DNA of 64,000 nucleotides, from contig VMSX01000030.1 of assembly GCA_013791905.1 (NCBI GenBank), positions 414,741 through 478,740 of the forward strand, written 5' to 3'. This DNA is from Rhodocyclaceae bacterium (lineage in GTDB: Bacteria > Pseudomonadota > Gammaproteobacteria > Burkholderiales > Rhodocyclaceae). A program made the position numbers and the translations under genes. Shown here piece by piece: positions 52 through 57,294 of this stretch (the first letter of the stretch is position 1; each line of letters opens with the position of its first letter). The notes under the pieces were generated by a model. It saw nothing but the letters and a program-made list of their open reading frames with translations. It was not told the origin of the DNA and did not search any database.

Positions 52-2409
52 TCAGCGTTTCAGTTTGGCAAACGCGGCCGCCATTGTGCCTGTTGGTTCG
101 GGCTGGCGTTGGCTGGGGCGCGGTGCTGTGGCTGGCGCCGTCCCAGATTTACGCGGCGTGTCGGCTGACGCCGTCCCGCCAGCGCCGACTTTTGTTTTGC
201 GTGCTGCCTCGTCGGTCAGGCGCATGGTCAGCGCGATGCGCTTGCGGGGAAGATCGACTTCCAGCACTTTCACCTTCACCACGTCGCCAGCTTTGACGAC
301 GGTGTGCGGATCCTTGACGAAGGTATTCGCGAGTGCCGAGATATGCACCAGACCGTCCTGATGCACGCCAATGTCGACAAAAGCACCGAAGTTGGTGACG
401 TTGGTGACCACGCCTTCGAGTTGCATGCCCGGTTCAAGATCCTTGAGTGTCTCGACGCCGTCACGGAATGACGCTGCCTTGAATTCCGGGCGCGGGTCGC
501 GGCCAGGTTTTTCGAGTTCCTTGAGGATGTCCTGCACGGTGGGCAGGCCGAAACGCGCATCGGTATACTTTTCAGCTTGCAGGGCACGCACCGCGCGGCC
601 GTCGCCAATCAGTTCCTGCACGCCCTTTTTGATGTCGGCGAGGATGCGCTCCACCACCGGGTAGGCCTCCGGATGCACAGATGAAGCATCAAGCGGATTT
701 TCTCCGCCATTGACGCGCAGGAAACCCGCCGCAAGTTCAAAGGTCTTGTCGCCGAGGCGCGGCACTTTCATCAGCGCGGCACGCGAGGCAAAGGCGCCGT
801 TGCTGTCACGGTGGCTGACGATGTTCGCTGCAAGTGTGCCGTTGAGACCCGAGATGCGCGCCAGCAGCGCCGCCGAAGCGGTATTCACATCGACGCCGAC
901 CGAATTCACGCAGTCTTCGACCACGGCATCGAGGCTCCGCGCCAGCTTGCTTTGATTGACATCGTGCTGGTACTGGCCGACGCCGATACTCTTGGGGTCG
1001 ATCTTGACCAGTTCCGCCAGTGGGTCTTGCAGACGGCGGGCGATCGAGACGGCCCCGCGCAGGGTGACATCGAGATCGGGAAATTCGCGTGCCGCCAGTT
1101 CCGAAGCCGAATACACCGATGCGCCGGCTTCCGATACGACGATCTTGGTCAGCTTCAGTTCAGGATGCTGCTTCATCAGGTCGCCCGCCAGCTTGTCGGT
1201 TTCACGGCTGGCCGTGCCGTTGCCGATGGCGATCAGTGCCGCACCATGCTTTTGCGCCATGCGCTGCAGCGCATGCAGGCTGCCGTCCCAGTCACGGCGC
1301 GGTTCGTGCGGATAAAGCGTGGCGGTTTCCAGCAGCTTGCCGGTGGCATCGACGACGGCAGCCTTGACGCCGGTGCGGATGCCCGGATCGAGCCCGATCA
1401 CCGTCTTCGGCCCGGCCGGCGCGGCGAGCAGCAGATCGTGCAGATTGCGCGCAAAGACGCGGATCGCTTCGGCCTCGGCACGTTCGCGCAGCGCCCCCAT
1501 CAACTCGGTTTCGAGATGCAGCGAGAGCTTGACCAGCCAGGCCCAGCGCGCGGTTTCCGCCAGCCAGGCATCGGCCGCCCTACCCTGTTCCCGGATGCCG
1601 ACATGGCCGGCAACCATGGCGATGCACGGCGAAGGCTCGGGCGGATCGCGCAGTTCGGCTTCGGTCTTCAGTGACACGCGCAGCACGTCTTCATTGCGGC
1701 CGCGGAACATCGCCAGCGCCCGATGCGAAGGCACCGACTTGAGCGGCTCGCGGAAATCGAACCAGTCGCGGAATTTCGCGCCGTCCTGCTCTTTCCCGGT
1801 GACTACGGTGGACACGATCAGCGCATGTTCGTTGAGATGGTTGCGCAATTTTTCCAGCAGTGCGGCATCCTCGGCAAACCGTTCCATCAGGATCTGCCGT
1901 GCGCCTTCGAGCGCGGCCTTTACGTCGGGCACATGCTTCTCGGGCGGCTCTTTTTCCAGATTCACATAGCGCGCCGCTTCGGCTTCGGGCTGCAATGTCG
2001 GGTCATTGAACAGCGCATCGGCCAGTGGCTCCAGCCCGGCCTCACGGGCGATCTGCGCCTTGGTGCGGCGCTTCTGCTTGTAGGGCAAGTAGAGGTCTTC
2101 GAGGCGCTGCTTGGTCTCGGCATTCTCGATTTCACTCTTCAGTTCGGGCGTGAGTTTGCCCTGCTCCTCGATGCTGGCCAGCACCGTGGCGCGCCGCTCT
2201 TCAAGTTCGCGCAGATAGCCTAGGCGCTCTTCCAGCGTGCGCAACTGCGTGTCATCGAGGTTCTCCGTCACTTCCTTGCGGTAACGGGCGATGAAGGGCA
2301 CGGTCGCGCCCTCGTCGAGCAACTGCACGGCGGCAGTCACCTGCGCGGGACGCACACCGAGTTCGGCAGCGATCAGATGATTGAGTCGTAATTGAGTGGC
2401 GGGCAGCAT
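52..2409 (-). CDS. tex: Tex family transcription accessory protein (S1 RNA-binding)
   Basis: Cytoplasmic nucleic-acid-binding protein of the Tex/YhgF family, 785 residues, the usual length. A helical N-terminal region is followed by a YqgF/RuvC-like fold with [12 protein letters not shown] around residue 330, helix-hairpin-helix segments around 490-560, and an S1 domain at about 645-730 ([36 protein letters not shown]). The family is linked to transcription and RNA metabolism; its exact role is not settled. The start is the ATG at 2409. Residues about 739-747 (KVGAGGTA) are encoded by a copy of the dispersed 25-bp repeat, after which a Pro/Ala-rich, low-complexity tail runs to the stop. It stands alone on the minus strand, divergent from the AIM24-like gene. 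Confidence 0.95.
169..193 (-). repeat. Dispersed 25-bp repeat, copy 1 (inside tex)
   Basis: Exact copy of the 25-bp element (four A, then core GTCGGCGCTGGCGGGACGGC, then G), read on the minus strand. It is in sense with tex and contributes KVGAGGTA just after the S1 domain. Confidence 0.85.
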
Positions 2410-2491
2410 GAGTGAGACAGGTATGAGGAAAGGCGGGCACTATGCCCCAAGGCAGCGCGCCGCGCAATCGTGGTTTCGGTTACAGGCGCGA

Positions 2492-2516
2492 CGCCGTCCT
2501 ACCAGCGCCGACTTTT
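2492..2516 (-). repeat. Dispersed 25-bp repeat, copy 2
   Basis: Copy of the 25-bp element with two mismatches in the middle, in the 183-bp gap between the divergent tex and AIM24-like genes. The gap also has to hold promoters for both genes; none is obvious by eye. Confidence 0.8.
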
Positions 2517-2592
2517 CCCGAAGTCTTGGTAACGATGCATCGTGAATAGGCCTCGGGTATTCTTCAGGTTTCATCCACTGGGGCGAACAAAC

Positions 2593-3387: not shown

Positions 3388-3591
3388 TCAGTAATGCGGA
3401 GGGATTTCGTCGAGCAGATTGCGCTGTTCGGCCGGCTGCGCTTGCAACAACTGCTGGCGCAGCGCGCGCAGTTCCTGCTGCAACTGGTCGATTTGCGCCT
3501 GTTGGCGATAGACGGTGAGATTGAGCGTTTCCAGCAGGTCTTCGGCAAAGGCCAGCTTGACTTCCAGTTCGGTGATGCGGTCTTCCATCAT
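3388..3591 (-). CDS. slyX: SlyX family protein
   Basis: A small protein of 67 residues, the typical SlyX size, made almost entirely of a predicted coiled coil (RITELEVKLAFAEDLLETLN, then QQAQIDQLQQELRALRQQLL) and ending in the family's usual PPHY. The function of SlyX is not established. The start is one of two adjacent ATG codons (3591 or 3588) that overlap the ylqF stop in an ATGA arrangement, so the two genes are probably translationally coupled. No separate ribosome-binding site is visible. Confidence 0.88.
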   Translation of the reverse strand: MMEDRITELEVKLAFAEDLLETLNLTVYRQQAQIDQLQQELRALRQQLLQAQPAEQRNLLDEIPPHY

Positions 3592-4505
3592 TCGTCGTCC
3601 AAAGTCGGCGCTGGCGGGATGAAATGCCCCGCAGCGGGTACGGCGGCAGCGAGCATCGCTGCTCGCGTTTCGGGCGTTTCGAGGCTGACGCGGCCCAGCG
3701 CGCCGCTGCGGTAGTCGGTCAAAAAAATCATTGCGGCCTTCTCCAGGTCGAGTTCGCCACCACGGCCCTTGATGATGCAACCGCGTTTGCGGGCAACGGT
3801 TTCGACGACAGCGACGGCGTCCATGGCAGCGACATCCACTTTATAGCGCGCTGCCAACAGCGCCGGATAGCGCGCTAGCAGAATGCCGGCAAGGAAAATG
3901 GCCACATCGGCATCAATCACCGCATTGCGGCCGATGGCATGGCTAGCGGCGAGCATGAAACCGTCTTCATCGTGTTCTATTTTTGGCCACATCAGACCCG
4001 GCGTATCGATGATGGTCTGCCGCAGCGAGAGATCGAAACTCTGCTGACTCTTGGTGACGGCCGGCTCATCGCCGACGGCCGCGATGCGCCGCTTCAGCAG
4101 GGCATTCATGAATGTCGACTTACCAACGTTGGGAATGCCCATGATCATCATGCGCAGCGGCTTCACGTTGTCGTCGCGGTGCGGTGCCAGTTGCTGGCAG
4201 AGTGCCGGCACCCGGGCGGCATCACCCGGCTTCTTGCATGAAATCGCCACAGCCTTCACCCCCGGCTGGCGACTGTAGTGGTCGAGCCATTGCTGCGTCA
4301 CTATGGGATCGGCAAGGTCGGCCTTGTTCAGCAGTTTGAGACAGGGCCGCTGGCGCGCCAGGCGCAGTTCGCGGATCATCGGATTGCTGCTCGCCTCGGG
4401 CAGGCGGGCATCGAGCACTTCGATCACCACGTCGGTGCGCGCCATGGTCTCGGCAGCTTTTCTGCGCGCCGAGGTCATGTGACCGGGGAACCACTGGATG
4501 GACAT
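3588..4505 (-). CDS. ylqF: Ribosome biogenesis GTPase YlqF/RbgA
   Basis: Circularly permuted GTPase that acts in large-subunit ribosome maturation in studied bacteria. The N-terminus IQWFPGHMTSARR is the family hallmark. G4-type LLNKADLAD at about residue 60 comes before G1 GIPNVGKST at about 120 and G3 DTPGLMWP at about 165, which is the permuted order. The protein is 305 residues. Residues about 287-302 (AGHFIPPAPTL) are encoded by a long-form copy of the dispersed repeat, read antisense, and look like an added C-terminal tail. The gene overlaps slyX by four bases. Confidence 0.93.
   Translation of the reverse strand: MSIQWFPGHMTSARRKAAETMARTDVVIEVLDARLPEASSNPMIRELRLARQRPCLKLLNKADLADPIVTQQWLDHYSRQPGVKAVAISCKKPGDAARVPALCQQLAPHRDDNVKPLRMMIMGIPNVGKSTFMNALLKRRIAAVGDEPAVTKSQQSFDLSLRQTIIDTPGLMWPKIEHDEDGFMLAASHAIGRNAVIDADVAIFLAGILLARYPALLAARYKVDVAAMDAVAVVETVARKRGCIIKGRGGELDLEKAAMIFLTDYRSGALGRVSLETPETRAAMLAAAVPAAGHFIPPAPTLDDE
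3601..3645 (+). repeat. Dispersed repeat, long form, copy 3 (ylqF 3' end)
   Basis: A 45-bp form of the element: the common left half AAAGTCGGCGCTGGCGGGA, then an insert of about 20 bp that can form a CCCG-CAG-CGGG hairpin, then ACGGCG. The same long form recurs at 13695-13740 in nuoG. It encodes the last residues of YlqF in antisense orientation. Confidence 0.8.
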
Positions 4506-4562: not shown

Positions 4563-4587
4563 AAAAGTCGGCGCTGGTGGAACGGCG
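4563..4587 (+). repeat. Dispersed 25-bp repeat, copy 4
   Basis: Copy with two substitutions (GGTGGAACGG instead of GGCGGGACGG) in the 122-bp gap between the diguanylate cyclase stop and the ylqF start. Confidence 0.8.
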
Positions 4588-4627: not shown

Positions 4628-5830
4628 TTATTCAGAGCTGGTTGGCGACAATGCACCGCGGAAATTGCGCAATACACTGGATAGCCACAGTGCTACCCTG
4701 CCCTGCCCGGATTGACGGTCCTTCCTGACCGGAAAAACTGAATCGCTGACCACGCGGTTGCGACCACCATGCTTGGCCTGATACATGGCCCGGTCAGCCG
4801 CGGCGACCAACTCGGCGGCTTGAGCAGGCGCATCGTCTGCCATCGACTCTTGCGACGCCATGGCGAGGCCAATCGAGATGGTGACAGGCACCGCTTGGCC
4901 GGATTTTGACTGAAATGGATGCGCCGCCACGGCACAGCGAATCCGCTCGGCGATTTCCAGCGCGTGCAGCGGGGAGGTTTGCGGCAGCAGGGCAACGAAT
5001 TCTTCGCCGCCATAACGGGCAATGGTATCTCCCGTGCGCAGTTGCGCCTGAATGACGCTAGCCACGCCGCGCAAAACGTCATCGCCGCATTGATGGCCGT
5101 AAGTGTCATTGATGCGCTTGAACTTGTCGATATCGAGAAACATGCAGGCCAGCGGCTGACGATGACGCCGTACCTGGCCAATTTCGACCAGGCAACGATG
5201 CTCGAAGTAACGGCGATTTTCCACACCGGTCAGACTATCTGTCAGCCCTGCCCGCTTCAGCCGTTCCTGCGTCAGCGCGTTTTCAAGGCAAACGGCAACG
5301 ACAGCAGCCAGCCGATCCAGGAAATTGGTGCCAGCGGCCGAGTCATAACGCTCGGCAGCAGCGCTACCCAGTTGCAGGCTGCCAATGAGTTCCCCCTGAC
5401 GCATCAGCGGCAGCAGAGCCACCGACGCAATCGCGCCGGCGGAAGATTTGAACAAGGGGCCGTGACGCTGTGGATCGAACGCACACAGATGGGTTGAACA
5501 CCCGTTGACGTAGAGCGGCTCGATCAGTTCAGCCGTCTGGAGCAACAGCAAACCGTCAAATGACTCACTGCCCGTATTCGTTTCGAGAATACGGGCCGCC
5601 TCATATTCCCTGTCGATCAGGGCGAGACTGACAAATTCGATATCGAAGGCCGTGCGGTAGTCTGCCAGCAGCACCCGCATCAACTCGTCCAGCGAACGGG
5701 CACTCAGCAGACAGCGCTCAAGCTGATCGAAGCGGCGCATCTTGTCTTCGTTCTGCCGCGCTTCATGGAGCAGCGCTTCCAACTGCTGTCGGAGAGAATA
5801 GTTTTCGAATTGCAGGCCGTTATTTTGCAT
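4628..5830 (-). CDS. Diguanylate cyclase with N-terminal DUF484/GAF-like domain
   Basis: Cytoplasmic GGDEF protein of 400 residues predicted to make cyclic di-GMP from two GTP. A short coiled coil (residues about 8-40) and a DUF484/GAF-like sensor (about 40-205, with FDIEFVSLALID) are followed by a GGDEF domain: DSLTGVENRRYFE, FLDIDKFKRINDTYGHQCGD, and the active GGEEF motif in RYGGEEFVALLP. RTGD lies five residues before GGEEF and matches the inhibitory RxxD site. No membrane segment is seen. The ATG at 5830 is preferred; a TTG at 5851 is also in frame. The start codon sits inside a perfect 42-bp palindrome. It follows nuoN on the same strand with an 87-bp gap. Confidence 0.9.
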   Translation of the reverse strand: MQNNGLQFENYSLRQQLEALLHEARQNEDKMRRFDQLERCLLSARSLDELMRVLLADYRTAFDIEFVSLALIDREYEAARILETNTGSESFDGLLLLQTAELIEPLYVNGCSTHLCAFDPQRHGPLFKSSAGAIASVALLPLMRQGELIGSLQLGSAAAERYDSAAGTNFLDRLAAVVAVCLENALTQERLKRAGLTDSLTGVENRRYFEHRCLVEIGQVRRHRQPLACMFLDIDKFKRINDTYGHQCGDDVLRGVASVIQAQLRTGDTIARYGGEEFVALLPQTSPLHALEIAERIRCAVAAHPFQSKSGQAVPVTISIGLAMASQESMADDAPAQAAELVAAADRAMYQAKHGGRNRVVSDSVFPVRKDRQSGQGRVALWLSSVLRNFRGALSPTSSE

Positions 5831-5851
5831 GTGCAAAATAACGGCCTGCAA
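5810..5851. repeat. Perfect 20-bp-arm palindrome over the diguanylate cyclase start
   Basis: The arm TTGCAGGCCGTTATTTTGCA (5810-5829) and its exact reverse complement (5832-5851) are separated by only two bases. The preferred ATG of the diguanylate cyclase (5830) lies at the centre. In RNA the structure would bury the start codon; as DNA it could be an operator. It is not followed by a T-tract in either direction, so it does not look like an intrinsic terminator. Confidence 0.9.
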
Positions 5852-5917
5852 AACGGCAACTTAAGGAGCGTTGCAGGTTTTTAGCCCCTCAAAAAGCGGG
5901 CTGGCCCGAGTTTCAGC

Positions 5918-13578: not shown

Positions 13579-15932
13579 GCACGCTCCACGGTAACGGTTG
13601 CAAACATTGCGCCAAGGCCGGCAGTTGCGGCATGCGCCGCAGCAATGCGGACACAGCTGTCAGGAACCCCGCTATCCAGCTTGGCAACCAGAATCGCCGT
13701 ACCCGCTTCGGGGCATTTCATCCCGCCAGAGCCGACTTTTACCTGCTCACCTGCCGTTACACCGAGCTTTGTCAGCATTGCGGCGCTCATCCGTGCGGTG
13801 GGTGCCACCGCATCGGCGGTCGCCTGCAGGGCCGGCGCGCGCCGCGCCAAAGCGTCGGCGAAGTGGATCGGCACATCGGCGATGCGCTCCACACCAGCCG
13901 CAGCCGCAAGCTCAATGGCGACACCAGCGAGGCTATTGTTGAGGCCAGATACAAATTCAGGCTTGCCGCCGAGCACTTCGTCGCGCACCTGTTCCGAGCT
14001 TTCATAGCCAAAGCCGTCGAGTTCAAGCAGGTTGCCCAGTACGCGCAGCACCTTCCAGGCCGGACGGGCTTCGCCACTTGGCTTGGTCACCGCATAAAAA
14101 CTCTGCACGCGACCTTCGGTATTGACAAAGGTGCCAGACGTTTCGCTGAAGGGCGCAACCGGCAACAGCACGTCGGCGTAATCCAGCGCAGCTTGCGACT
14201 TGAATGGCGACAGCATGATCACGCTGCTGGCCTGTTTCATCGCTGCCAATGCAAGCGCACCATCGGCGCAATCGAGTTCCGGTTCGGCACCGAGCAACAG
14301 GTAAACCTTGCGCGGCGTGGCCAGCATGGCAGCGGCATTCATGCCCGCGGCAAATGGCACGGCAGCGGCGACATAGCCGCCCACACTATTGGCAGCCTCG
14401 CCAAGGAAGCCGAATTTGGCGCCCAGCAAACCGGCCAGTTGCTGGGTCAGTGCGTTGAGCGTGGCGGCCTGCGGGTGCTGCTGCGCAAAATTGCCCAGCA
14501 GGATCCCGACATTGCTGCCGGACACAAGACTGGTGGCAATTTTCTTCGCCGTATCACCAGCTTCTACTTTTGCCAGCGCCGGATCGGTCGCCGCACCCTT
14601 GAGTTCAGCGACCGCCTTGACCACTTCGGCAAGTAGCGTGGGCAATTGCGATGGTGCAGCAATCGCCTTGGCGAACAGCTTGAGCAACAGGTCATCATCG
14701 GCCGCGTGGATGAGGGAGACCTGCGTACCTTTCTTCGCCGTCTGACGCAAACGCTGCGCGATCAACGGGTGGTCCTTGCGCAGGAAACTGCCAACCACCA
14801 GCACGCGATCAAGCGCGCTGATTTCAGCGACCTTCATGCCCAGCCAAGGCGCACCCTGACGCTTGCCGTCGGTCGAAAAATCAGACTGACGCAAACGGAA
14901 ATCAATGTTCTCACTGCCGATGCCACGCATCAGCTTGGCAGACAGCGCCATCTCTTCGAGCGTGGCGTGTGGACTCACGAGTGCACCGATGCTCGCCGCA
15001 CCATGGTTCTTGGCCACATCACGCAGTGCATGGGCAGCGTAGTCAAGCGCGACGTTCCAGTCGACTTCCTGCCACTGACCGCCCTGCTTGACCATCGGCT
15101 TGGTCAGGCGCCCATTGTCACCCTGAGAATTCAGGCCTTCGTAGGAAAAACGTTCCTTGTCCGAAAGCCAGCACTCGTTGATCTGTTCGTTTTCTAGCGG
15201 CAGCACGCGCATGACGCGATTGTGCTGGGTCTGCACGATGAGATTGCTGCCCAAACCATCGTGCGGACTGACCGACTTGCGCCGCGCCAGTTCCCAGGTG
15301 CGGGCGGAAAAACGGAAAGGCTTGGAGGTCAGTGCCCCTACCGGACAAAGGTCGATGATGTTGCCGGAAAGCTCTGAGTCAACCGTCTTTTCGATGAAAG
15401 GCATGACCTCTGCGCGGTCGCCGCGGAAAGCCTGACCTAGTTCCATCAGGCCGGCAATTTCCTGGGTAAAACGGATGCAACGCGTGCAGTTGATGCACCG
15501 TGTCATGTCGGTGCTAACCAGCGGGCCGAGATCCTTGTCCGACACCACGCGCTTCTTTTCCTGGTAGCGCGAGCCAGAACTGCCGTAGCCTACCGCCAAG
15601 TCCTGCAACTGGCATTCGCCGCCCTGATCGCAGATCGGGCAATCGAGCGGGTGGTTGATCAACAGGAATTCCATCACGTTCTTTTGCGCTTTGACCGCCA
15701 GATCGGAATGGGTGAATACCTTCATGCCGTTGGTGACGGGCGTGGCGCAGGCCGGCATCGGCTTTGGCGCTTTTTCGACCTGCACCAAGCACATGCGGCA
15801 ATTCGCCGCAATGGACAGCTTTTTGTGATAGCAGAAATGCGGGATATAGATGCCGGCCTGATGGGCGGCCTCAATCACCAGAGTGCCGTCCGGTACCTGC
15901 ATGGCCTTGCCGTCAAGTTCAAACTCTAGCAT
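13575..15932 (-). CDS. nuoG: NADH-quinone oxidoreductase subunit G
   Basis: Large peripheral-arm subunit, 785 residues. The N-terminal 2Fe-2S domain holds [18 protein letters not shown] and a later Cys; next come [18 protein letters not shown] and [10 protein letters not shown], then a molybdopterin-oxidoreductase-like fold. The ATG at 15932 ([19 protein letters not shown]) is the family start and overlaps the nuoF stop by 7 bp. Residues about 731-746 ([16 protein letters not shown]) are encoded by a long-form copy of the dispersed repeat. Homologues as I recall them have a shorter Gly-rich loop here, so this looks like an in-frame insertion in the C-terminal beta domain. Confidence 0.95.
13695..13740 (-). 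repeat. Dispersed repeat, long form, copy 5 (inside nuoG)
   Basis: A 46-bp long-form copy nearly identical to the one at 3601-3645, read on the minus strand in sense with nuoG. Both contain the about 20-bp central insert (TGAAATGCCCCG followed by a CGGGTA arm) absent from the 25-bp form. Confidence 0.8.
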
Positions 15933-29093: not shown

Positions 29094-29155
29094 CACCAAC
29101 CTCAAGGCATTCCCGCGACCCACGGTTCAGCGCGGTTCGCCCTGGTGCGGCCCGG

Positions 29156-29197
29156 CGCAATACCCGCTACGGGCCACTTCGTCCCGCCAGTCCCACG
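29156..29197 (-). repeat. Dispersed repeat, diverged long form, copy 6
   Basis: About three quarters identical to the long form at 3601 and 13695 (TACCCGCTACGGGCCACTTC followed by GTCCCGCCAG). It lies in the 131-bp convergent gap between the GT4 and Cache genes, which has no other visible feature. Confidence 0.55.
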
Positions 29198-29224
29198 GGG
29201 ATTTCCTTCGGTCACACCGACTTT

Positions 29225-30181: not shown

Positions 30182-30241
30182 GGTCAGGATCCTTCACTCA
30201 GGATATTGTTGCAATGCAACATGATACCTGTCCCCTGCCCG

Positions 30242-30265
30242 CGCGTCCGGCCAGCGCCAACTTTT
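30242..30265 (-). repeat. Dispersed repeat, diverged copy 7
   Basis: CGTCCGGCCAGCGCCAACTT resembles the minus-strand form of the 25-bp element with a few substitutions. It lies immediately upstream of the Pho box of the CYTH-CHAD gene. Confidence 0.5.
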
Positions 30266-32007: not shown

Positions 32008-33180
32008 GTGATCATGCGCATCGCCCTTGTCACCGAGACCTACCCGCCCGAAGTTAACGGCGTCGCCATGACACTGGGGCGACTTGCCGATGGCCTGCGC
32101 CAGCGCGGCCACACCCTGCACCTGGTGCGTCCGCGCCAGGTACGTGGGGAACAGCCGGCGATGACGGCCGACTTGCGCGAGATGCTGGTAGGCAGCCTGC
32201 CGCTGCCGCGCTACCCAGGCCTGCGTTTTGGCCTGCCGGCGCACGGTGCGCTGCTCAAGTCCTGGCGCGAACAGCGGCCGGACATCGTCCATGTCGCCAC
32301 CGAAGGACCGCTGGGCTGGTCGGCGCTGACTGCGGCGCGGCGGCTCGACCTGCCGATCAGCTCGAGCTTTCATACCAATTTCGACGCCTACAGCGGCCAC
32401 TACGGCATCGGCTGGATGCGTGGCAGCATCGAGCGCTACCTGCGCCACTTCCACAACCGCAGCCAGGTCACGCTGGTGCCGACGCAGGAGATCGTGCGCC
32501 GTCTCACCAGCGCCGACTTTCAAAATTTGAAGGTGATGGCGCGCGGCGTCGACACCCAGCTCTTCAATCCGCAACGCCGCTCCGCAGCGTTGCGCCAGCA
32601 ATGGGGCGCGGACGCGAACACGCTGGTCGTCGCCACGGTCGGCCGACTGGCGGCCGAAAAGAATCTGGACCTCGCCGTCTTTGCCTTCGACGCGCTGCAC
32701 CGGGCGTACCCGAATTCCCGGCTGTTGTTTGTTGGCGACGGCCCGCAAAAGTCAGCGCTGGCGGCACGCCACCCCGAGCACATCTTTGCCGGCATGCGCC
32801 ACGGCGAGGATCTCGCCGCGCACTACGCCTCGGCCGACATCTTCCTGCTCCCCAGTCTCACCGAGACCTACGGCAACGTCACGCTCGAGGCCATGGCCAG
32901 CGGACTCGGTGTCGTCGCCTACGCCAGCGCCGCCGCCCTTGATCTGATCGACGACGGCCGCAACGGACTACTGGCACCCCCCGGCGACGAACAGCGTTTC
33001 ATCGGCGCGGCCATTTCGCTCGCTGGCAACGCAGGCCTGCTCGCCCGCCTGCGCCTGCGCGCCCCGGCGCGCGTGTCGCGCCTCGGCTGGGATGCGATTC
33101 ACGACACCTTCGCCGACATTCTCGAAGACCTTGCACTGATTCACTCACGCAGGAGGCATCGTGCCGTAGTGAAACCATGA
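32008..33180 (+). CDS. Agt-like GT4 glycosyltransferase (predicted lipid remodelling)
   Basis: A 390-residue GT-B family 4 glycosyltransferase. It opens with RIALVTETYPPEVNGVAMTL, has SSSFHTNFDAYSGHYG in the acceptor domain, VATVGRLAAEKNLDL at the domain interface, and SLTETYGNVTLEAMASGLGVVAY in the donor-binding domain. Start is GTG 32008 or, more simply, ATG 32014. It overlaps the PlcP-like gene by four bases (ATGA). This gene pair matches the known Agt-PlcP lipid-renovation pair, in which PlcP frees diacylglycerol from phospholipid and Agt glycosylates it under phosphate starvation. The sugar cannot be told from sequence. Confidence 0.8.
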   Translation: MIMRIALVTETYPPEVNGVAMTLGRLADGLRQRGHTLHLVRPRQVRGEQPAMTADLREMLVGSLPLPRYPGLRFGLPAHGALLKSWREQRPDIVHVATEGPLGWSALTAARRLDLPISSSFHTNFDAYSGHYGIGWMRGSIERYLRHFHNRSQVTLVPTQEIVRRLTSADFQNLKVMARGVDTQLFNPQRRSAALRQQWGADANTLVVATVGRLAAEKNLDLAVFAFDALHRAYPNSRLLFVGDGPQKSALAARHPEHIFAGMRHGEDLAAHYASADIFLLPSLTETYGNVTLEAMASGLGVVAYASAAALDLIDDGRNGLLAPPGDEQRFIGAAISLAGNAGLLARLRLRAPARVSRLGWDAIHDTFADILEDLALIHSRRRHRAVVKP

Positions 33181-40752: not shown

Positions 40753-41849
40753 CCGTCAAGGGAGGCGAAAATGCCATCCTCAATTCCCACGAATTGCTCG
40801 CCACTGCCCGTCGCGGCGACGCTGGCATTCCCGAAATCACGCCATTGCAAATCCGCGAGCAGCTACGGCTGGCCGTGGCGCGGGTGATGAGTGAAGGGTC
40901 GCTCTACGATGAAGATCTCGCCGCGCTGGCGCTGAAGCAGGCCGCCGGCGACCAGATCGAGGCGATCTTCCTGCTGCGCGCCTATCGCACCACGCTGCCG
41001 CGCTTTGGCTACAGCGTGCCGGTGGACACCTCGCGCATGGCACTGCAACGGCGCATCTCAGCGGCCTTCAAGGACCTGCCGGGCGGTCAGGTGCTGGGGC
41101 CAACTTACGACTATACCCAGCGCCTGCTGGATTTTTCGCTGGTTGAAATGCAGCCTGCCCCCATCCCGCCGCTGGCCGCCGAGCCGCTGCCTGACAGCAT
41201 GCCGCGCGTCACCGACCTGCTTGGCCACGAAGGGCTGATGGAGGCAGAACTCCCCGCTCACGGCGATCCAGCCCCTGCGGACCTCTCGCGCGAGCCCTTG
41301 AGTTTCCCTGCCGACCGGGCGACCCGCCTGCAAAATCTGGCACGGGGCGACGAAGGTTTCCTGCTTGCCATGGGCTACTCGACCCAGCGCGGCTATGCCA
41401 ACTCCCATCCCTTCGCTGGCGAAATTCGCATGGGCGACGTTGCTCTGGAGATCATTCCCGAGGAGTTGGGGTTCGCGGTCTGCATCGGCGAGATCACGCT
41501 GACCGAATGCCAGATGATCAACCAGTTTGCCGGCTCCCGCACGGTACCGCCACAGTTCACAAGAGGTTACGGTTTGGCCTTTGGCGAAGCGGAGCGCAAA
41601 GCCATGGCCATGGCGCTGGTGGACCGCTCGCTCCGCGCCAGTGAACTTGGCGAGGAAATGAAGTCGCCGGCCCAGCAACAGGAGTTTGTCCTTTCGCATT
41701 CCGACAACGTCGAGGCCAGCGGTTTTGTCCAGCACCTCAAGCTGCCCCACTACGTGGATTTCCAGTCTGAACTCGAACTGTTGCGCAAGATGCGCGCCAA
41801 GCGCGCAAAAGTCGGCGCTGGCGAGACGGCGCTGGAGGAGACTGTATGA
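40743..41849 (+). CDS. phnI: Phosphonate C-P lyase subunit PhnI
   Basis: Nucleosidase subunit that, with PhnG/H/L, swaps adenine of ATP for the phosphonate to give a ribose triphosphate phosphonate. 368 residues; the body (MYVAVKGGENAILNSHELL to SGFVQHLKLPHYVDFQSELELLRKM) fits the family. Residues about 355-363 (KVGAGETA) come from a copy of the dispersed repeat, so the tail exceeds the roughly 354-residue E. coli protein by a repeat-derived extension. Overlaps phnJ by four bases. Confidence 0.94.
   Translation: MYVAVKGGENAILNSHELLATARRGDAGIPEITPLQIREQLRLAVARVMSEGSLYDEDLAALALKQAAGDQIEAIFLLRAYRTTLPRFGYSVPVDTSRMALQRRISAAFKDLPGGQVLGPTYDYTQRLLDFSLVEMQPAPIPPLAAEPLPDSMPRVTDLLGHEGLMEAELPAHGDPAPADLSREPLSFPADRATRLQNLARGDEGFLLAMGYSTQRGYANSHPFAGEIRMGDVALEIIPEELGFAVCIGEITLTECQMINQFAGSRTVPPQFTRGYGLAFGEAERKAMAMALVDRSLRASELGEEMKSPAQQQEFVLSHSDNVEASGFVQHLKLPHYVDFQSELELLRKMRAKRAKVGAGETALEETV
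41807..41831 (+). repeat. Dispersed 25-bp repeat, copy 9 (phnI 3' end)
   Basis: One mismatch (GCGAGAC for GCGGGAC) from the 25-bp element, in sense with phnI and six codons before its stop. Confidence 0.85.
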
Positions 41850-46141: not shown

Positions 46142-46147
46142 CCCTGG

Positions 46148-46172
46148 CGCCGTCCCGCCAGCGCCGACTTTT
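46148..46172 (-). repeat. Dispersed 25-bp repeat, copy 10
   Basis: Exact copy, minus orientation, starting seven bases after the EEP gene stop. With the upstream CTGG it can form a CTGGCG/CGCCAG hairpin. It is in inverted orientation to copy 11 on the other side of the IS remnant. Confidence 0.85.
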
Positions 46173-46250
46173 CTCATTGAATCATCACGCAAGTACAACA
46201 AGATCGTCATTTCACTTATCTAGGCTTCTCGACCGGTCGAATGTGTTTCG

Positions 46251-46692
<442 letters not shown>

Positions 46693-46725
46693 GCCGTTTG
46701 GACTCTACACTTTTCGACTGACCTC

Positions 46726-46750
46726 AAAAGTCGGCGCTGGCGGGACGGCG
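46726..46750 (+). repeat. Dispersed 25-bp repeat, copy 11
   Basis: Exact copy, plus orientation, 46 bp beyond the acr3 stop and 34 bp past the transposase remnant. With copy 10 it brackets the remnant as a 25-bp inverted repeat. Confidence 0.85.
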
Positions 46751-46796
46751 ATTGCGCGAGTGAGGTGGTGGCCGCAGACCGGGCAGGTCAGTAATT

Positions 46797-47864: not shown

Positions 47865-47867
47865 GAT

Positions 47868-48362
47868 TCAACCGCCTGCGTGAATGTGCCGCGCGGCCGC
47901 CAGCACTTCATCCTGGCTCATGCTTTCCAGCGGTAGCGCGAGGAATGCGGTGATGCGCTGCTTCAGGGACGGGTAGGCTTCCTCGAAGGCTGCGCGCCGC
48001 GCTTCGAGGGGCTCAACGTGGGCCGGGTCGGGGATGCCCCAGTGGGCGGTGCTCGGGTGGCCGGGCCAGACCGGACAGGTCGCGTTGGCGGCATTGCCAC
48101 AGACGGTGATGATGAAATCAAAAGTCGGCGCTGGCGGGACGGCGTGCGGACCAAACTCGTCCCAGGACTTGTTGCGCACACCTTCACACGGCACGCCGTG
48201 CTTCGCCAGTGTTTCCAGCGCGACGGGATTCACCTGTCCGGCCGGCTTACTGCCTGCTGAAAATGCTTTGAGGCGCCCGGCGCCGAGATGATTGAACAGC
48301 ATCTCGGCGAGAATGGAGCGGGCGGAGTTGCCGGTGCACAGTAGAAGAACATTGAAGGTCAT
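47868..48362 (-). CDS. arsC: Arsenate reductase ArsC (LMW phosphatase type)
   Basis: Cytoplasmic arsenate reductase, 164 residues. P-loop CTGNSAR (Cys9-Arg15), NPVALETLAKHGVPCEGVRNKSWDEF, ITVCGNAANATCPVWPG and HWGIPDPAHVE fit the family. Residues about 73-81 (AVPPAPTF) just before DFIITVC are encoded antisense by an exact copy of the dispersed repeat; this loop is a few residues longer than in homologues as I recall them. It lies 43 bp downstream of phnE on the same strand, so phnCDE-arsC-acr3 may be cotranscribed. Confidence 0.92.
   Translation of the reverse strand: MTFNVLLLCTGNSARSILAEMLFNHLGAGRLKAFSAGSKPAGQVNPVALETLAKHGVPCEGVRNKSWDEFGPHAVPPAPTFDFIITVCGNAANATCPVWPGHPSTAHWGIPDPAHVEPLEARRAAFEEAYPSLKQRITAFLALPLESMSQDEVLAAARHIHAGG
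48120..48144 (+). repeat. Dispersed 25-bp repeat, copy 12 (inside arsC)
   Basis: Exact copy embedded in the arsC reading frame, antisense orientation, coding for AVPPAPTF between SWDEF and the DFIITVC strand. Confidence 0.85.
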
Positions 48363-48405
48363 GAAAATTCCACTAGCAGACGGAACACCGCCAGCTTCTT
48401 GCTTT

Positions 48406-49212: not shown

Positions 49213-49286
49213 GAGGGAACGGTGAGTGGCTCGTCAAGGGAACGCCGCACGCCCGGCGATACGCGGGCGGCGGGCAATGTCGATGG

Positions 49287-50231: not shown

Positions 50232-50283
50232 GAGATTGCTCCAGAAAGGTTAGGTTGAAAAAAAGAAAACTCAGCGCCAGTAC

Positions 50284-51162: not shown

Positions 51163-51211
51163 GTTTGGCTCTCTCAGGTTGGCTAGAAAAAACGCAGTGT
51201 GGTAACGCAAT

Positions 51212-51229
51212 GTGACATCGTGATGACAG
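51212..51229 (-). promoter_or_regulatory. Pho box upstream of phnC
   Basis: On the minus strand CTGTCAT-CACG-ATGTCAC gives PhoB half-sites of 7/7 and 6/7 with the 4-base spacer. A weaker third half follows, and CACACT ten bases after the second half could be a -10. It lies in the 99-bp phnM-phnC gap, so phnC has its own phosphate-responsive promoter. Confidence 0.72.
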
Positions 51230-51261
51230 TACGTCGTGGCGACGGTGGCTGGCGGCGCGTC

Positions 51262-52416: not shown

Positions 52417-52542
52417 GCCAGGCTCCTGAAATCAGCGACGTTAATGCGCTGCTGTTTGCCGCCCGAACGGGTGGCGGGCGGCAGACGCCACAAACATCCG
52501 GGAATGCGCAGCAAGGGATGAGGGTGCATAGGGGATCTCACG

Positions 52543-52995
52543 TCAAGGCTCAATCAAAAAACTCAGGCCGTGCCGTGCAAAGCCGAGCGACTCGTAAAAG
52601 GCATGCGCCGCATGGCGCTTGCGGTCGGAGGACAGAGCCAGCTTGTAGCAACCTGCCAGACGTGCCTGCTCGATGGCATGGATCATCATCCGGCGTCCGA
52701 TACCCTGACCTTGCCGGTTCGGAACCACTACCACGTCTTCTGCAATGGCTGACGCCGCGCCGCAGTGCGCCAAGTTATGCATGATCAGCAGGGCGTAGCT
52801 GCCGACCACCGCGCCGCCCTCATCCTCGTCGCAGGCGACGAACAGGCGGTAGTTCGGGTAGCTGGCGAACTCGGCCAGCAGTTTCTGCGCTTTGTCTATT
52901 GACAGAGTCTGACCGCTATCCATGTCAGGTTGGGCATAGAGGCCAAGTACCGCCGGCAGGTCGTCTGGGGTGGCTTGTCGAACAGCAATTTTCAT
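52543..52995 (-). CDS. GNAT acetyltransferase, PhnO-like
   Basis: A 150-residue GNAT fold protein: IAVRQATPDDLPAVLGLY (motif C start), IAEDVVVVPNRQGQGIGRRMM (motif A, acetyl-CoA loop) and HAAHAFYESLGFARHGLSFLI (motif B). Its length, context next to phnM and phnCDE, and a Pho-box-like site upstream suggest aminoalkylphosphonate N-acetyltransferase (PhnO). Substrate specificity of GNAT proteins cannot be read from sequence. ATG 52995 is chosen; a copy of the dispersed repeat lies 12 bp upstream. Confidence 0.78.
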   Translation of the reverse strand: MKIAVRQATPDDLPAVLGLYAQPDMDSGQTLSIDKAQKLLAEFASYPNYRLFVACDEDEGGAVVGSYALLIMHNLAHCGAASAIAEDVVVVPNRQGQGIGRRMMIHAIEQARLAGCYKLALSSDRKRHAAHAFYESLGFARHGLSFLIEP

Positions 52996-53007
52996 GCAAA
53001 CTCCTGA

Positions 53008-53032
53008 AAAAGTCGGCGCTGGCGGGACGCCG
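53008..53032 (+). repeat. Dispersed 25-bp repeat, copy 13
   Basis: One mismatch (GACGCCG for GACGGCG). It lies 12 bp upstream of the PhnO-like gene start, inside what must be that gene's leader. Confidence 0.85.
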
Positions 53033-53086
53033 CTCGGCGGGGCGGTAAAGGCTGACGCTCCATGGCGGGTAGTGTCAGGCGGCCAG

Positions 53087-53104
53087 ATGACGCGACAATG
53101 ACAC
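53087..53104 (-). promoter_or_regulatory. Pho-box-like site upstream of the PhnO-like gene
   Basis: On the minus strand GTGTCAT-TGTC-GCGTCAT gives half-sites of 6/7 and 5/7 with correct spacing, followed ten bases later by GACACT as a possible -10. It lies about 92 bp before the start codon. Confidence 0.48.
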
Positions 53105-53202
53105 TTTTGTGAAAGATGCCACCGCGACACAAGCCGGCTCAAGAATGAATGGGGCGCCGTGACACTGGACGCAATGCTGCTCGACAGCCCGAATTCACAG
53201 CA

Positions 53203-53247
53203 TCGTAATCATTCTGCAAAACTCATGTAACCGACTCTTCCGACAAT
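53203..53247 (+). promoter_or_regulatory. Pho-box-like promoter of olsB
   Basis: Three half-sites with exact 11-base periodicity, TCGTAAT-CATT-CTGCAAA-ACTC-ATGTAAC (53203-53231), are followed ten bases later by GACAAT (53242-53247) as a -10. Individual half-sites are only 5-6/7, but the spacing copies that of the pstS promoter. Confidence 0.55.
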
Positions 53248-53280
53248 GCCGCCACAACCCAAGACGACAAGGAGAAGAGC

Positions 53281-54048
53281 ATGCTGCACACCCAGGAATG
53301 GCAAGCCCACGACATCCATCACCATCAAAACTATTCAATCAGCTTGGCGCTCAATGCGCACGAGGTCAAGGAAGCCCAGCGCCTGCGCTACCGCGTCTTT
53401 GTCGAGGAACTCGGTGCCAGGATTCAAACGCCCATCGCCGGCGTCGATGCCGACCGCTTCGATCGGCATTGCGAGCATCTGATTGTCCGCGACACATCGA
53501 ACGCCGGAGCCGGCAGGGTCGTCGGCACCTACCGCATCCTGACGCCCGAGGCCGCCAGCAGAGCCGGCAACTACTACAGCGAAAGCGAATTTGATCTCAC
53601 CCGCCTGCGCTACCTGCGGGATGGCATGGTCGAGGTCGGCCGTTCCTGCATTCACCCCGACTACCGCAATGGCACGGTGATCGCGCTGCTGTGGAGCAAG
53701 CTGGCCGAGTTCATGGCACGCCACGACTACCGCACCCTGATCGGCTGCGCCTCGGTCAGCATGGCCGACGGCGGTCACAACGCCGCCAACCTGTTCGTGC
53801 AATTGCTCGACGCGCACCTCGCGCCGCTCGAGTACCGGGTCTTCCCGCGCGAGCCCCTGCCCTTCGAACGCTTGGTCACCGGCCGCGCCGCCGCCATACC
53901 GCCGCTGCTCAAGGGCTACCTGCGCGCTGGCGCCTGGGTCTGCGGCGAGCCGGCCTGGAACGCCGATTTCAATACCGCCGACCTGCCGCTGCTGCTGCCG
54001 ATGTCGCGCCTCACCCCGCGCTACGCACGGCACCTCGTGCGCGGCTGA
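53281..54048 (+). CDS. olsB: L-ornithine N-acyltransferase OlsB
   Basis: A 255-residue acyl-ACP-dependent GNAT-related acyltransferase that makes lyso-ornithine lipid, the first step of phosphorus-free ornithine lipids. AQRLRYRVFVEELGARI, DRFDRHCEHLIVRD, VEVGRSCIHPDYRNGTVIALLW and LIGCASVSMADGG are OlsB hallmarks. The ATG at 53281 follows GGAGAAG. No olsA is adjacent. In studied bacteria olsB is induced by phosphate limitation, matching the Pho-box-like site upstream. Confidence 0.87.
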   Translation: MLHTQEWQAHDIHHHQNYSISLALNAHEVKEAQRLRYRVFVEELGARIQTPIAGVDADRFDRHCEHLIVRDTSNAGAGRVVGTYRILTPEAASRAGNYYSESEFDLTRLRYLRDGMVEVGRSCIHPDYRNGTVIALLWSKLAEFMARHDYRTLIGCASVSMADGGHNAANLFVQLLDAHLAPLEYRVFPREPLPFERLVTGRAAAIPPLLKGYLRAGAWVCGEPAWNADFNTADLPLLLPMSRLTPRYARHLVRG

Positions 54049-54054
54049 GAACGC

Positions 54055-55380
54055 CTACTTGGCAGCCGCATCCTCGGCGAGCGCCCGGCGCATGCGCCTG
54101 ATGCCGAACAGTGCGAGGAACGCAATCAGCGGAATCGACACGGCGGTGGCAATCTCGGGCGACAGGCCGGGAAGCAGATACTGGCCCGCCTTGGCGAGGT
54201 AATGCACAAGCTGCGATCCGTAGTAGGTGATGGCGACGATCGACAGGCCCTCGACCGTTTCCTGCAAACGCAATTGCAGCTTGGCGCGATTGTTCATCTG
54301 GGCCAGCAACTCATGGTTTTGTCTTTCAATCTCGATATCGACGCGGGTGCGCAGCAACTGACTGTTGCGCGCCACGCGGCCTGACAGGTCGTCCTGCCGC
54401 CGTGCCATGGCCGCGCAGGTATCCATCGCCGGCAACAGACGACGCAGCATGAATTCGTTGAGCGTCGGAAAACCCGGGATACGCAACTCACGCAAATCCT
54501 CGATCCGTTGCATGACCAGACTGTGATAAGCGCGGGCGGCAGCAAAACGAAAGGTGGTGCGCGCCACCGAATGTTCGACTTCCGCGGCCAGCTTCGCAAG
54601 ACTGGCCAGCACCGCGCGCTCGTCCTCCGGCGAACGCGCCTGGCCGATGTGATCCATCAACTCGGCCAACTCCTTTTCAGCACCACCCAACCAGCGGCCC
54701 ACCTCCTTGGCAACCGGCAAACCGAGCAAGGCCATCATCCGATAAGTCTCGATTTCCAGCAAACGCTGAACCGCCCGTCCCGCCTGGCGTTGTGTCAGCG
54801 CGGCATCGAGCACGAGAAAGTGCGAAAAGCCGTTGTCGAACATGAAGTCCGTAAACACCCACGCTGCACCCGCGCCCACCTGAACGGCCACCATCTGATG
54901 CCCGCTCGGCGGAAAACCGGCGATCACCGCTTCCGGCGACATCTCCGCCGTCGAGCGCAGCTCGACATGCGTCGCGACAATCAACTGTCCGGGGATCGCC
55001 GCCAGGAACGAAGGCACAACGGCCTCCAGCGCCGTTGAATCCGGGTTGAACGGCTCGCCGACCACCAGCGGCCGGGAAAAAGTGTAGCTCGAAAACTCGG
55101 TATGCAACTCCCAGCGCAGGCGAAAACTGCCGGCGTCGAGCACCAGGTGCGTATCCGAGCTTTCAACCGACTGACAGACGCTGGACTGGCACAAGCGCGC
55201 GAGATTGTCGCGTTCAACCTGCTCCGTCAAACCTTCATGTTTGAAGGCAAGATGCGAAACGATCAGCGGGCTGCTCAGGGGAATCGGTAAATGGGCGTGA
55301 AACTCGCTGTTCAACCGCTCGCGGAGCGGATGCTCTTCGAGTCCAGCCAATTTCAACCTGGTGTTCAATCTGGCGTGCAT
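54055..55380 (-). CDS. DUF3422 family membrane protein
   Basis: A 441-residue protein of the DUF3422 family. The N-terminal part begins HPLRERLNSEFHAHLPIPL, the central region is a long helical bundle (about 230-370, with TLNEFMLRRLLPAMDTC), and two C-terminal transmembrane helices (VAITYYGSQLVHYLAKAGQYLL and IATAVSIPLIAFLALFGIRRM) anchor it, a topology like some CorA-type or SLC-like proteins. Function unknown. ATG 55380 is used; TTG 55395 is in frame. It is convergent with olsB with six bases between the stops. Confidence 0.85.
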   Translation of the reverse strand: MHARLNTRLKLAGLEEHPLRERLNSEFHAHLPIPLSSPLIVSHLAFKHEGLTEQVERDNLARLCQSSVCQSVESSDTHLVLDAGSFRLRWELHTEFSSYTFSRPLVVGEPFNPDSTALEAVVPSFLAAIPGQLIVATHVELRSTAEMSPEAVIAGFPPSGHQMVAVQVGAGAAWVFTDFMFDNGFSHFLVLDAALTQRQAGRAVQRLLEIETYRMMALLGLPVAKEVGRWLGGAEKELAELMDHIGQARSPEDERAVLASLAKLAAEVEHSVARTTFRFAAARAYHSLVMQRIEDLRELRIPGFPTLNEFMLRRLLPAMDTCAAMARRQDDLSGRVARNSQLLRTRVDIEIERQNHELLAQMNNRAKLQLRLQETVEGLSIVAITYYGSQLVHYLAKAGQYLLPGLSPEIATAVSIPLIAFLALFGIRRMRRALAEDAAAK

Positions 55381-55586
55381 AGTATGACCTGTCAATCATG
55401 TGCAACAGTGATGTGAGACCCGTTTTCCCGGATGATGCCGTGAAACAGAAAGCGGACGCAACCTACCAATTCAATATTACAACTCGGTGACATGCCGATA
55501 GCAGCTTGCGGCGCGGAATTCTCCCCACCGATAACCATCCCGACGATAGGGTGCGATAATCCGCCCAATTTTCGCTCCCATAGATC

Positions 55587-57170
55587 ATGGAAATCACCAA
55601 CATCAACGATATCGAGCGTGCCACGCTCAAGGCGCGCCGCGAAATGTTCCGCTTTGGCATGGCGCTGCTGTTCATCATCGGTGTCATGTTCTACGCTTGG
55701 GCACGTGGCGGGGGCAGTTTCCTGTTGATCATGGCCACCGTTATCGGCGGTTACATGGCCATCAACATCGGCGCCAACGATGTTGCCAACAACGTCGGCC
55801 CGGCGGTCGGCTCGCGCGCCCTGACCATGACCGGCGCCCTGTTCATTGCGGCAATTTGCGAAGCGGCGGGAGCGCTGATCGCCGGCGGCGACGTGGTGCA
55901 GACGATCCGCGGCGGCATCATCAGCCAGGACAGCGTCGCCAATGCCGATGTTTTTGTCTGGCTGATGATGGCCGCGTTGCTGGCCGGGGCGATCTGGCTG
56001 AACATCGCTACCGCCGTCGGCGCGCCGGTTTCGACGACCCATTCCATCGTTGGCGGAGTGCTGGGTGCCGGCGTCGCCGCCGGTGGCTGGGGCATCGCCA
56101 ACTGGGGCACGATGGGCTACATCGCGGCCAGTTGGGTGATTTCGCCCGTCCTGGGCGGCATCATTGCGGCCGCATTTCTTTACCTCATCAAACGCCGCGT
56201 CACCTACCAGAGCGACATGATGGCGGCCGCCCGGCGGGTTGTCCCCTTGCTGGTGGCCTTCATGGCCTGGAGTTTCACTACCTATCTGATGCTGAAAGGT
56301 GTCAAGGCAGTGCTCAAAGTCAGCTTTGCAACTGCCTCACTGACCGGCCTGGTGGTGGCCATCATCGTCTATCTACTGGTGAAACCGCGTGTCGAGCGTC
56401 AATCGCGCAGCGGCGAAAGCACCGCGATCAATGACAAACCCCGTGTCAATACGATGTTCACCGTACCGCTGATCTTTGCCGCCGCCTTGCTCAGTTTCGC
56501 CCATGGTGCCAACGATGTGGCCAACGCGGTCGGTCCGCTTGCCGCAATCGCCGACGTGCTGGGTGGCGCCAACATCGGCAAATCCTCGCATATCCCCCTG
56601 TGGGTCATGATGGTCGGCGCGATTGGCATCGCCATCGGACTCGCCCTGTTTGGCCCCAAGCTGATCCGTACCGTCGGCTCCGAGATCACCGAACTGGACC
56701 AGATTCGCGCCTTTTGCATTGCCATGGCGGCCACCATCACCGTCATCATCGCCAGCCAGCTCGGCCTGCCGGTCAGCTCGACCCATATCGCCGTCGGCGG
56801 AATATTTGGTGTCGGCTTCCTGCGCGAGTTTCTCAAATCGAACTACGCACGCATGATCGATGAAATCCAGTCGCACCATCCGGAGGGCGATCAGGCGGCC
56901 ATCGAAGCCTTCCTGCGGCGCTTCGACAAAGCGCCGATCCACGAGAAGGGCAACATGCTCGAAGTACTGAAGCGCGAAGCCAAAGCCCGCGCGAACCCCG
57001 AACTGTTTTCGCCCAAGGACCGCAAGGGCTTGCGCAAGGTGTATCGCGGCGAACTGGTCAAACGCTCGCAATTGTTGAAAATCGCGGCGGCCTGGATCAT
57101 TACCGTGCCGGCCTCGGCACTGCTCGGCGCACTATTTTTCTTCGCGATCCGCGGCGCGATGTTGCCCTGA
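55587..57170 (+). CDS. pit: Low-affinity inorganic phosphate transporter (PiT family)
   Basis: A 527-residue PiT permease with two inverted repeats, each with its signature: GANDVANNVGPAVGSRAL near residue 60 and GANDVANAVGPLAAIADVLGG near 310. VSTTHSIVGGVLGAG and VSSTHIAVGGIFGVGFLRE follow each repeat. A cytoplasmic segment (about 420-500) precedes the last helix. It adds a proton- or metal-phosphate-coupled uptake route next to Pst. No convincing Pho box lies close to its start. Confidence 0.92.
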   Translation: MEITNINDIERATLKARREMFRFGMALLFIIGVMFYAWARGGGSFLLIMATVIGGYMAINIGANDVANNVGPAVGSRALTMTGALFIAAICEAAGALIAGGDVVQTIRGGIISQDSVANADVFVWLMMAALLAGAIWLNIATAVGAPVSTTHSIVGGVLGAGVAAGGWGIANWGTMGYIAASWVISPVLGGIIAAAFLYLIKRRVTYQSDMMAAARRVVPLLVAFMAWSFTTYLMLKGVKAVLKVSFATASLTGLVVAIIVYLLVKPRVERQSRSGESTAINDKPRVNTMFTVPLIFAAALLSFAHGANDVANAVGPLAAIADVLGGANIGKSSHIPLWVMMVGAIGIAIGLALFGPKLIRTVGSEITELDQIRAFCIAMAATITVIIASQLGLPVSSTHIAVGGIFGVGFLREFLKSNYARMIDEIQSHHPEGDQAAIEAFLRRFDKAPIHEKGNMLEVLKREAKARANPELFSPKDRKGLRKVYRGELVKRSQLLKIAAAWIITVPASALLGALFFFAIRGAMLP

Positions 57171-57269
57171 ATCGGGGATGAATCCCGGGTAGGCAGCCCT
57201 GCCTGCCTCATCCTCTGCGGCTGAACCCGCCATATAGCCAGCCTTTTCCGGCGTCAGGCCGAAAACCCG

Positions 57270-57294
57270 CGCCGTCCCGCCAGCGCCGACTTTT
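57270..57294 (-). repeat. Dispersed 25-bp repeat, copy 14
   Basis: Exact copy, minus orientation, about 100 bp after the pit stop and immediately before the AT-rich tract. Confidence 0.85.

Follow-up and report, generated by a model that had tools for sequence, protein, structure and literature searches.

Uptake signal sequences (USS) of the Pasteurellaceae and DNA uptake sequences (DUS) of the Neisseriaceae are the described systems that come closest to the element analysed here, a dispersed motif of 24–25 bp in a stretch of 64,000 nucleotides from a Rhodocyclaceae bacterium (GCA_013791905.1, contig VMSX01000030.1, positions 414,741 to 478,740), which is called the window in the following. 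Both have a strong consensus and prefer non-coding DNA, yet many of their copies are genic (PMC1626085); 47–70% of the copies lie in genes at 84–89% coding DNA (PMC2346458). They display no significant orientation bias, are spaced more regularly than random, and form some close pairs of opposite orientation (PMC1626085). A gap test showed that USSs are not insertions (PMC1626085), and uptake sequences are described as growing through point mutation under uptake bias (PMC1939737). DUS occur in dialects, and some genomes of the DUS family contain no obvious DUS (PMC3630211). According to a 2025 paper, such motifs of about 9–12 nt are known only from Neisseriaceae and Pasteurellaceae (PMC12616744).

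The short form of the motif resembles DUS and USS in several respects. It is present in many copies and in both orientations, and it is found within and between genes with an intergenic excess. Its copies are spaced more regularly than random, some of them form inverted pairs, dialects are arranged around a fixed inner core, and at least part of the copies probably originated through point substitution. The motif fits most of the listed hallmarks, which makes uptake bias the likeliest driver. We lean towards reading the short form as a DNA uptake sequence, or as a signal working alike, in Betaproteobacteria near Sulfuritalea. Because ComEA content, length and density differ, likeness to uptake sequences is claimed rather than membership in their class. 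Unlike DUS and USS, the motif belongs to another lineage. None of the open-licence full texts searched contained the 20-mer core or a 15-mer of it, and none joined an uptake sequence to Rhodocyclales; among the matches listed for Sulfuritalea, repeats and uptake sequences in the open-licence literature, no title dealt with the motif.

Motif, copy number and distribution

The 25-mer consists of AAAA, the 20-mer core GTCGGCGCTGGCGGGACGGC, and a final G. With up to three mismatches it occurs at 10 places of the window; 100 dinucleotide shuffles yielded none. The motif is bipartite, with AAAGTCGGCGCTGG being followed by three to four loose bases, by ACGGC, and by a final G or A. A profile was derived from 64 copies of the window's own genome with at most two core mismatches (464 kb). 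Three of the upstream As are conserved to 95–100% and the fourth to 64%, and the base following the core is a G in 95% of the copies. The middle positions 11–14 are loose, the edges of the motif are sharp, and the flanks carry no signal. The five exact copies named in the initial annotation are all present, and its four near copies have one or two mismatches (Table 1). Two further copies had been overlooked, one at 32497 with three mismatches and a weaker one near 32748. Of the two supposed diverged relatives, the one at 30242 is indeed a short copy with four mismatches in the 20-mer core, whereas the one at 29156 is actually a long form carrying two distinct inserts.

The genome of the window (G000) comprises 3,643,995 bases in 30 contigs. 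It contains 549 copies of the 20-mer core with up to three mismatches, 278 in forward and 271 in reverse orientation, compared to 4 for a reversed-pattern control. The initial guess of hundreds of copies per genome was therefore correct, and a count no higher than expected from composition is excluded. That the motif is real is near certain. Among over-represented 10-mers, pieces of the motif rank top in two samples of 400 kb, one from G000 (contig 4) and one from G017, which belongs to the same genus. In the first 400 kb of G002 (L219–L238), a repeat of about 58 copies, which we take to be perhaps a CRISPR array, ranks above the motif words. No outstanding over-represented 10-mer was found in 305 kb of G006.

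Within the genus, 18 of 19 genomes contain 373–763 copies. The remaining genome, G006, belongs to the genus by placement and has 2 copies; it may have lost the motif or may be a distant member. In 18 further genera of the family, each represented by one genome, two had 687 and 784 copies and the other sixteen 1–16. The 24 genomes from other families of the order had 0–12 copies, and the reversed control reached up to 17. A wider survey of the family was performed with a degenerate pattern on 199 genomes, with G006 lying outside the sample. Each of 21 genomes from six genera (g1, g2, g9, g62, g70, g88) contained 303–829 copies. One genome each of g15, g47, and g69 had 57–86 copies, a second g47 genome had 4, and the remaining 175 genomes had 0–36. 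Five of 80 named loci that were retrieved with a window protein bear the motif, and these belong to three Sulfuritalea metagenome-assembled genomes (MAGs), a Rhodocyclales MAG, and a betaproteobacterial MAG, which places the motif clade near Sulfuritalea. In viral contigs, the exact 21-mer was found in 54 stretches, whose 493 kb contain 88 motifs with up to three mismatches; since these stretches were chosen for the motif, no density in viral DNA can be deduced from them.

Placement was determined with our own simple gene caller for 229 copies with up to four mismatches, located in contig 4, the window, G017, and G002 (1.264 Mb in total). In this DNA, which is 91–94% coding, 156 copies are genic, 55 are intergenic, and 18 lie across gene edges, corresponding to an approximately threefold intergenic enrichment. 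The genic copies are spread along the gene length. They are read as KVGAGGTA (65 copies), AVPPAPTF (45), RRPASADF (20), KSALAGR (19), SRRWRDG (6), or PSRQRRL (1), such that two of the six frames take 110 of the 156. Because all six frames are open, this bias looks like a filter of protein tolerance. For annotation, caution is advisable, as the motif puts recurrent peptides into unrelated proteins. The density is one copy per 4.6–6.5 kb. The coefficients of variation (CV) of the spacing were 0.73, 0.62, and 0.65, compared to 0.98 for random placement, and spacing as even as this was reached in 0.42%, 0%, and 0% of 5000 simulations. In the window alone, 12 copies are unevenly spaced (CV 1.47). 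Strand counts are balanced in G017 (46 of 85) and in G002 (42 of 71).

Copies at orthologous sites and dialects

The window gene 47868–48362 belongs to the Pfam family LMWPc and is presumably arsC-like. It was compared with its orthologs in an alignment of 63 rows, two of which represent one place in G006. The motif is present in G002 and G011 without any indel relative to empty orthologs such as those of G017, G013, and G001. The native bases are replaced by the motif, which brings amino-acid changes into a conserved gene. At this site, a Sulfuritalea locus (L091) and a MAG locus (L097) have six mismatches. Eight mismatches were counted in G004; this value is also found in the unrelated L147 and L158 and is therefore no proof of an intermediate. 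Nine extra bases stand beside the motif in the window, L071, L074, and L094, and they are likewise found in the motif-free L090. In L089, the motif copy is interrupted by a 27-bp insert. At a second site, C4:380427, six genomes (G000, G011, G013, G016, G017, G006) align gaplessly with graded similarity to the motif, and only the distant L034 requires gaps. In a variable loop of a third gene, the motif points one way in G017, G004, and G013 and the opposite way in G010, G011, G012, and G018; it is missing from G000, G005, G006, and G008. The opposite orientations at one loop suggest repeated gain. For 124 genic sites altogether, a matching stretch was found elsewhere in 82 cases, and in 23 of these 82 there was an empty one.

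Empty and filled sites were also compared in close relatives, as the initial annotation had proposed. G017 and G002 share large collinear blocks, most of which are 84–93% identical. Among 71 G017 copies with up to three mismatches, 19 have no ortholog in the compared part of G002; at 42 of the other 52 sites, G002 contains the motif with up to five mismatches. In a two-way comparison, which counts shared sites twice, genic motif sites with an ortholog were gapless in 34 of 40 and 28 of 30 cases (7 and 7 more had no ortholog), adding up to 62 of 70. For random genic sites, this value was 276 of 284 (116 of 400 had no ortholog). A half-formed partner with at least four mismatches was present in 11 of the 34 and 4 of the 28 gapless genic comparisons. 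The partner has seven mismatches and no gap at one site with flanks that are 94–96% identical. Divergence is lower in the motif than in the flanking sequence (8.1% versus 12.2% and 7.7% versus 12.5%); the random control gave 11.8% versus 11.5%. A good part of the genic copies very probably evolved in place.

The motif occurs in dialects. The base after the core is an A in about 90% of the copies in G002 (n = 29) and G017 (n = 57), in contrast to the G of the window's own genome. Small samples of 4–9 copies each indicate ACGGT in G005 (4 copies), GTCGGTG in G026, and GTCGACGCTGG in G086; in the g2 dialect, again judged from a small sample, a T precedes ACGG. The elements TCG, GCTGG, and ACGG are constant across dialects. 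Pairs of copies at orthologous sites comprised 8 A/G, 5 T/T, 3 A/A, 2 A/C, and 2 G/G. A concerted change of dialect at such sites was not used as an argument, because the 20 pairs stem from a handful of genes and provide too few independent loci.

Uptake signal, binding site or mobile element

Of the possibilities named in the initial annotation (mobile element, uptake or segregation signal, protein-binding site, recombination hot spot), the uptake signal is favoured for the short form by dialects, even spacing, the occurrence of both orientations and, in part of the genes, in-place substitution. The motif would then be a tag of self-DNA that is read by the DNA-uptake machinery of the clade. 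The motif-bearing bacteria would be competent, and a surface receptor would read the motif. The closer a fragment matched the motif, the more frequent its uptake and recombination would be, and point substitutions would build up matches at all places where the protein can accommodate them. Uptake bias would be the driving force, and dialects would arise through drift of recognition. If true, a further betaproteobacterial lineage would join the two known cases as the third, its dialects extending over several genera beside motif-free relatives. It would offer a new setting to test why uptake specificity evolves, and it would be an indication of transformation in groups that are represented here mainly by assembled genomes. 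A bolder version, which we put forward only tentatively, is that of a third, independently evolved self-DNA recognition system with a core of about twice the known length, dialects over six or more genera, and a route without recognisable ComEA. The force behind the genome watermark would then itself be new.

A number of observations weigh against an uptake signal. The motif is a fully specified, GC-rich, bipartite sequence of 24–25 bp, compared to a core of 9–12 nt in DUS and USS, of which USS itself also has looser extended flanks. Its density is about one copy per 5 kb, compared to about one per kb. A weak strand bias was found in contig 4 (22 of 61, p 0.04). The 42 of 52 sites shared by the sister genomes would also be expected from ordinary selection on binding sites. 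Furthermore, 8 of 70 genic motif sites have gaps, a larger share than the 8 of 284 among random genic sites, and indels separate the sisters in 11 of 16 intergenic comparisons; some of these intergenic gaps are 54–61 bases long and contain an inverted-pair composite. The 23 sites with an empty ortholog gave a mixed result: 7 sites align without gaps only, at 8 the motif-bearing gene alone is longer by extra residues, at 4 the ortholog has the extra residues or the gaps are mixed, and 4 follow more than one pattern. One genic site is a clean 27-bp difference from G006. Because of such indels and of the 27-bp difference, some short copies may have come by insertion.

The competence genes give a mixed picture. 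In favour of uptake, ComEC was found in 23 of 23 genomes and PilQ in 15 of 15; a ComP_DUS-like pilin was present in 37 of 41. All three occur with and without the motif, and the motif-free G006 has all of them. The ComP_DUS pilin was rejected as a discriminating receptor, because it is present in 17 of 19 genomes of the genus including G006, and likewise in all five searched motif-free genomes of other family genera. ComEA scored above the curated cut-off in 3 of 15 genomes (G036, G105, G023). The set included ten motif-bearing genomes (G000, G002, G017, G011, G019, G026, G079, G087, G105, G086), among which G105 alone has a recognised ComEA. In the other nine, the sole match to the ComEA model is a helix-hairpin-helix stretch in an open reading frame (ORF) about 800 residues long; in the window's own genome, this ORF is the Tex-like window gene. 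Two ComEA stretches were used as tblastn queries and revealed no ComEA in the approximately 11–15% covered of each of G000, G002, G017, and G006.

In the main rival explanation, a chromosomal protein involved in nucleoid structure, segregation, recombination, or repair binds to the motif, which is held at hundreds of sites by selection and is unrelated to uptake. This corresponds to the segregation and protein-binding options of the initial annotation, and we consider it the less probable, if still serious, explanation. It would account for a long and specific motif with strong positional constraint and a loose centre, for the even spacing, for the lower divergence of the motif relative to its flanks in G017 and G002, for the sites common to both sisters, and for the fact that nine of the ten genomes with the motif have no ComEA recognised by the model. 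However, motif copies alter amino acids of the conserved arsC-like gene, the strand pattern is not consistent, and about 500 separate 24-bp sites would need selection.

The next rival concerns mobility and requires a distinction between the short motif and its long forms. As stated in the initial annotation, the core is no simple palindrome, and the short form folds weakly (−3.9). In form A, a hairpin insert of 24–27 bp follows GTCGGCG; in form B, a hairpin insert of 21 bp precedes ACGGCG. In the scan for split motifs, short prefixes gave rise to many chance matches; among the matches listed, only these two recurrent forms were kept. The two long copies noted initially at 3601 and 13695 are of form B; they comprise 45 bp, are inverted relative to each other, and are 96% complementary. 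Form A is present in 77 copies in G000, 89 in G008, 35 in G005, and 13 in G011, whereas none was found in seven genomes of the genus including G002 and G017. Close pairs of opposite short copies number at least 11 in 1.264 Mb, which is an undercount because pairs with an indel in one arm escape the ungapped scan. For one inverted pair, taken from G017, the fold scored −25, a value that may refer to DNA or to RNA parameters. As the long forms behave as inserted palindromic repeats, the initial picture of one element with a long form has to be replaced by that of a short motif with separate, species-patchy palindromic derivatives. These appear to be secondary repeats that have grown from motif copies or were inserted into them.

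The short form itself might be a mobile or formerly mobile miniature element of the type of repetitive extragenic palindromic (REP) sequences or miniature inverted-repeat transposable elements, with the in-place similarity resulting from decay or gene conversion. The patchy form A, the indel-polymorphic inverted-pair composites, the clean 27-bp genic difference, and several short copies that differ by indels from distant orthologs speak for this explanation. Palindromic long forms and composites with these properties are indeed shared with REP sequences and bacterial interspersed mosaic elements. Unlike these, the short form is non-palindromic, mostly genic, and often gapless relative to half-formed orthologs. 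Further arguments against mobility are the series that align without gaps, one in the arsC-like gene and one at C4:380427, the high proportion of gapless genic sister comparisons, and copy numbers that are alike across six genera. The REP-associated transposase family Y1_Tnp was found in 4 of 9 motif-rich genomes and not in the other 5, and a role of a REP-type transposase is therefore unsupported. The mobile element proposed initially would suit the long forms, which behave as inserted palindromic repeats, and has become improbable for the short form, although some short copies may be of mobile origin.

A Chi-like recombination signal is very improbable. The core is highly abundant and contains GCTGGCGG, which we take to be one base off the Chi octamer of E. 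coli. However, the motif is much longer than Chi, the bases at the octamer end are among the least conserved, those around the octamer are strongly conserved too, and the strands are unbiased in G017 and G002. A transcription terminator or RNA signal, for which the intergenic enrichment and the strong hairpin of the inverted pair could be adduced, is least credible of all, given that most copies are genic, that the short form folds weakly, and that the scan for close opposite pairs yielded 11, an undercount.

Copies in the window and further observations

The copies in the window and their surroundings are compiled in Table 1. If the later start at 52923 proposed by our own gene caller holds, the copy at 53008 lies just upstream of the acetyltransferase gene.

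Table 1. Positions of short and long forms of the motif in the window.
Feature	Position	Strand	Location
Exact 25-mer	169..193	-	within Tex-like gene 52-2409 (minus)
Motif, 2 mismatches	2492..2516	-	between called genes
Long form B, 21-bp hairpin insert preceding final ACGGCG	3601..3645	+	overlaps called gene 3588-4445 (minus) near gene end
Motif, 2 mismatches	4563..4587	+	between called genes
Long form B	13695..13739	-	within nuoG-like gene 13575-16001 (minus)
Long form A plus B, TGACCGAAGG... insert and second hairpin insert (read from sequence)	about 29155..29224	-	
Diverged motif, 5 mismatches to 24-mer	30241..30264	-	between called genes
Motif, 3 mismatches	32497..32521	-	within glycosyltransferase gene 32008-33180
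Diverged motif, 4 mismatches	32748..32771	+	within glycosyltransferase gene 32008-33180
Motif, 1 mismatch	41807..41831	+	3' end of phnI gene 40743-41849
Exact motif	46148..46172	-	directly past end of gene 45368-46141 (plus)
Exact motif	46726..46750	+	directly past 3' end of gene 46797-47864 (minus)
Exact motif	48120..48144	+	within LMWPc-family gene 47868-48362 (minus); native bases replaced, by ortholog comparison
Motif, 1 mismatch	53008..53032	+	within acetyltransferase ORF 52543-53142 (minus), near start
Exact motif	57270..57294	-	between PHO4-family gene ending 57170 and gene starting 57464

The window segment 5918–19054 contains the complex I (nuo) operon and is nearly devoid of the short motif; long form B is located in its nuoG-like gene. 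A foreign island was considered for the motif-poor stretch and rejected. Since this stretch is largely the nuo operon, an avoidance of foreign DNA by the motif is not supported. A phage collection gave no match to window positions 20000–27000. Positions 40000–58000 were matched by a plasmid collection in parts only, namely in arsenic-transport and phosphonate genes among the matches listed (best 20 of 129).

Three further sequence elements were observed. At window positions 5800–5861, two arms of 30 nt, which are 87% complementary and 2 nt apart, are located at the start of ORF 4628–5851. In contig 4 (L039–L058), a second GC-rich word, GGGGCGGCCC, is present in 24 copies compared to 1.6 expected in 400 kb; the words overlapping it read CGGGCCGCCCCAAG. 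Finally, a dispersed repeat of about 130 bp (L243:15219–15350 in G017) is present at least 12 times in G007, and it also occurs several times in G004, G017, and G002.

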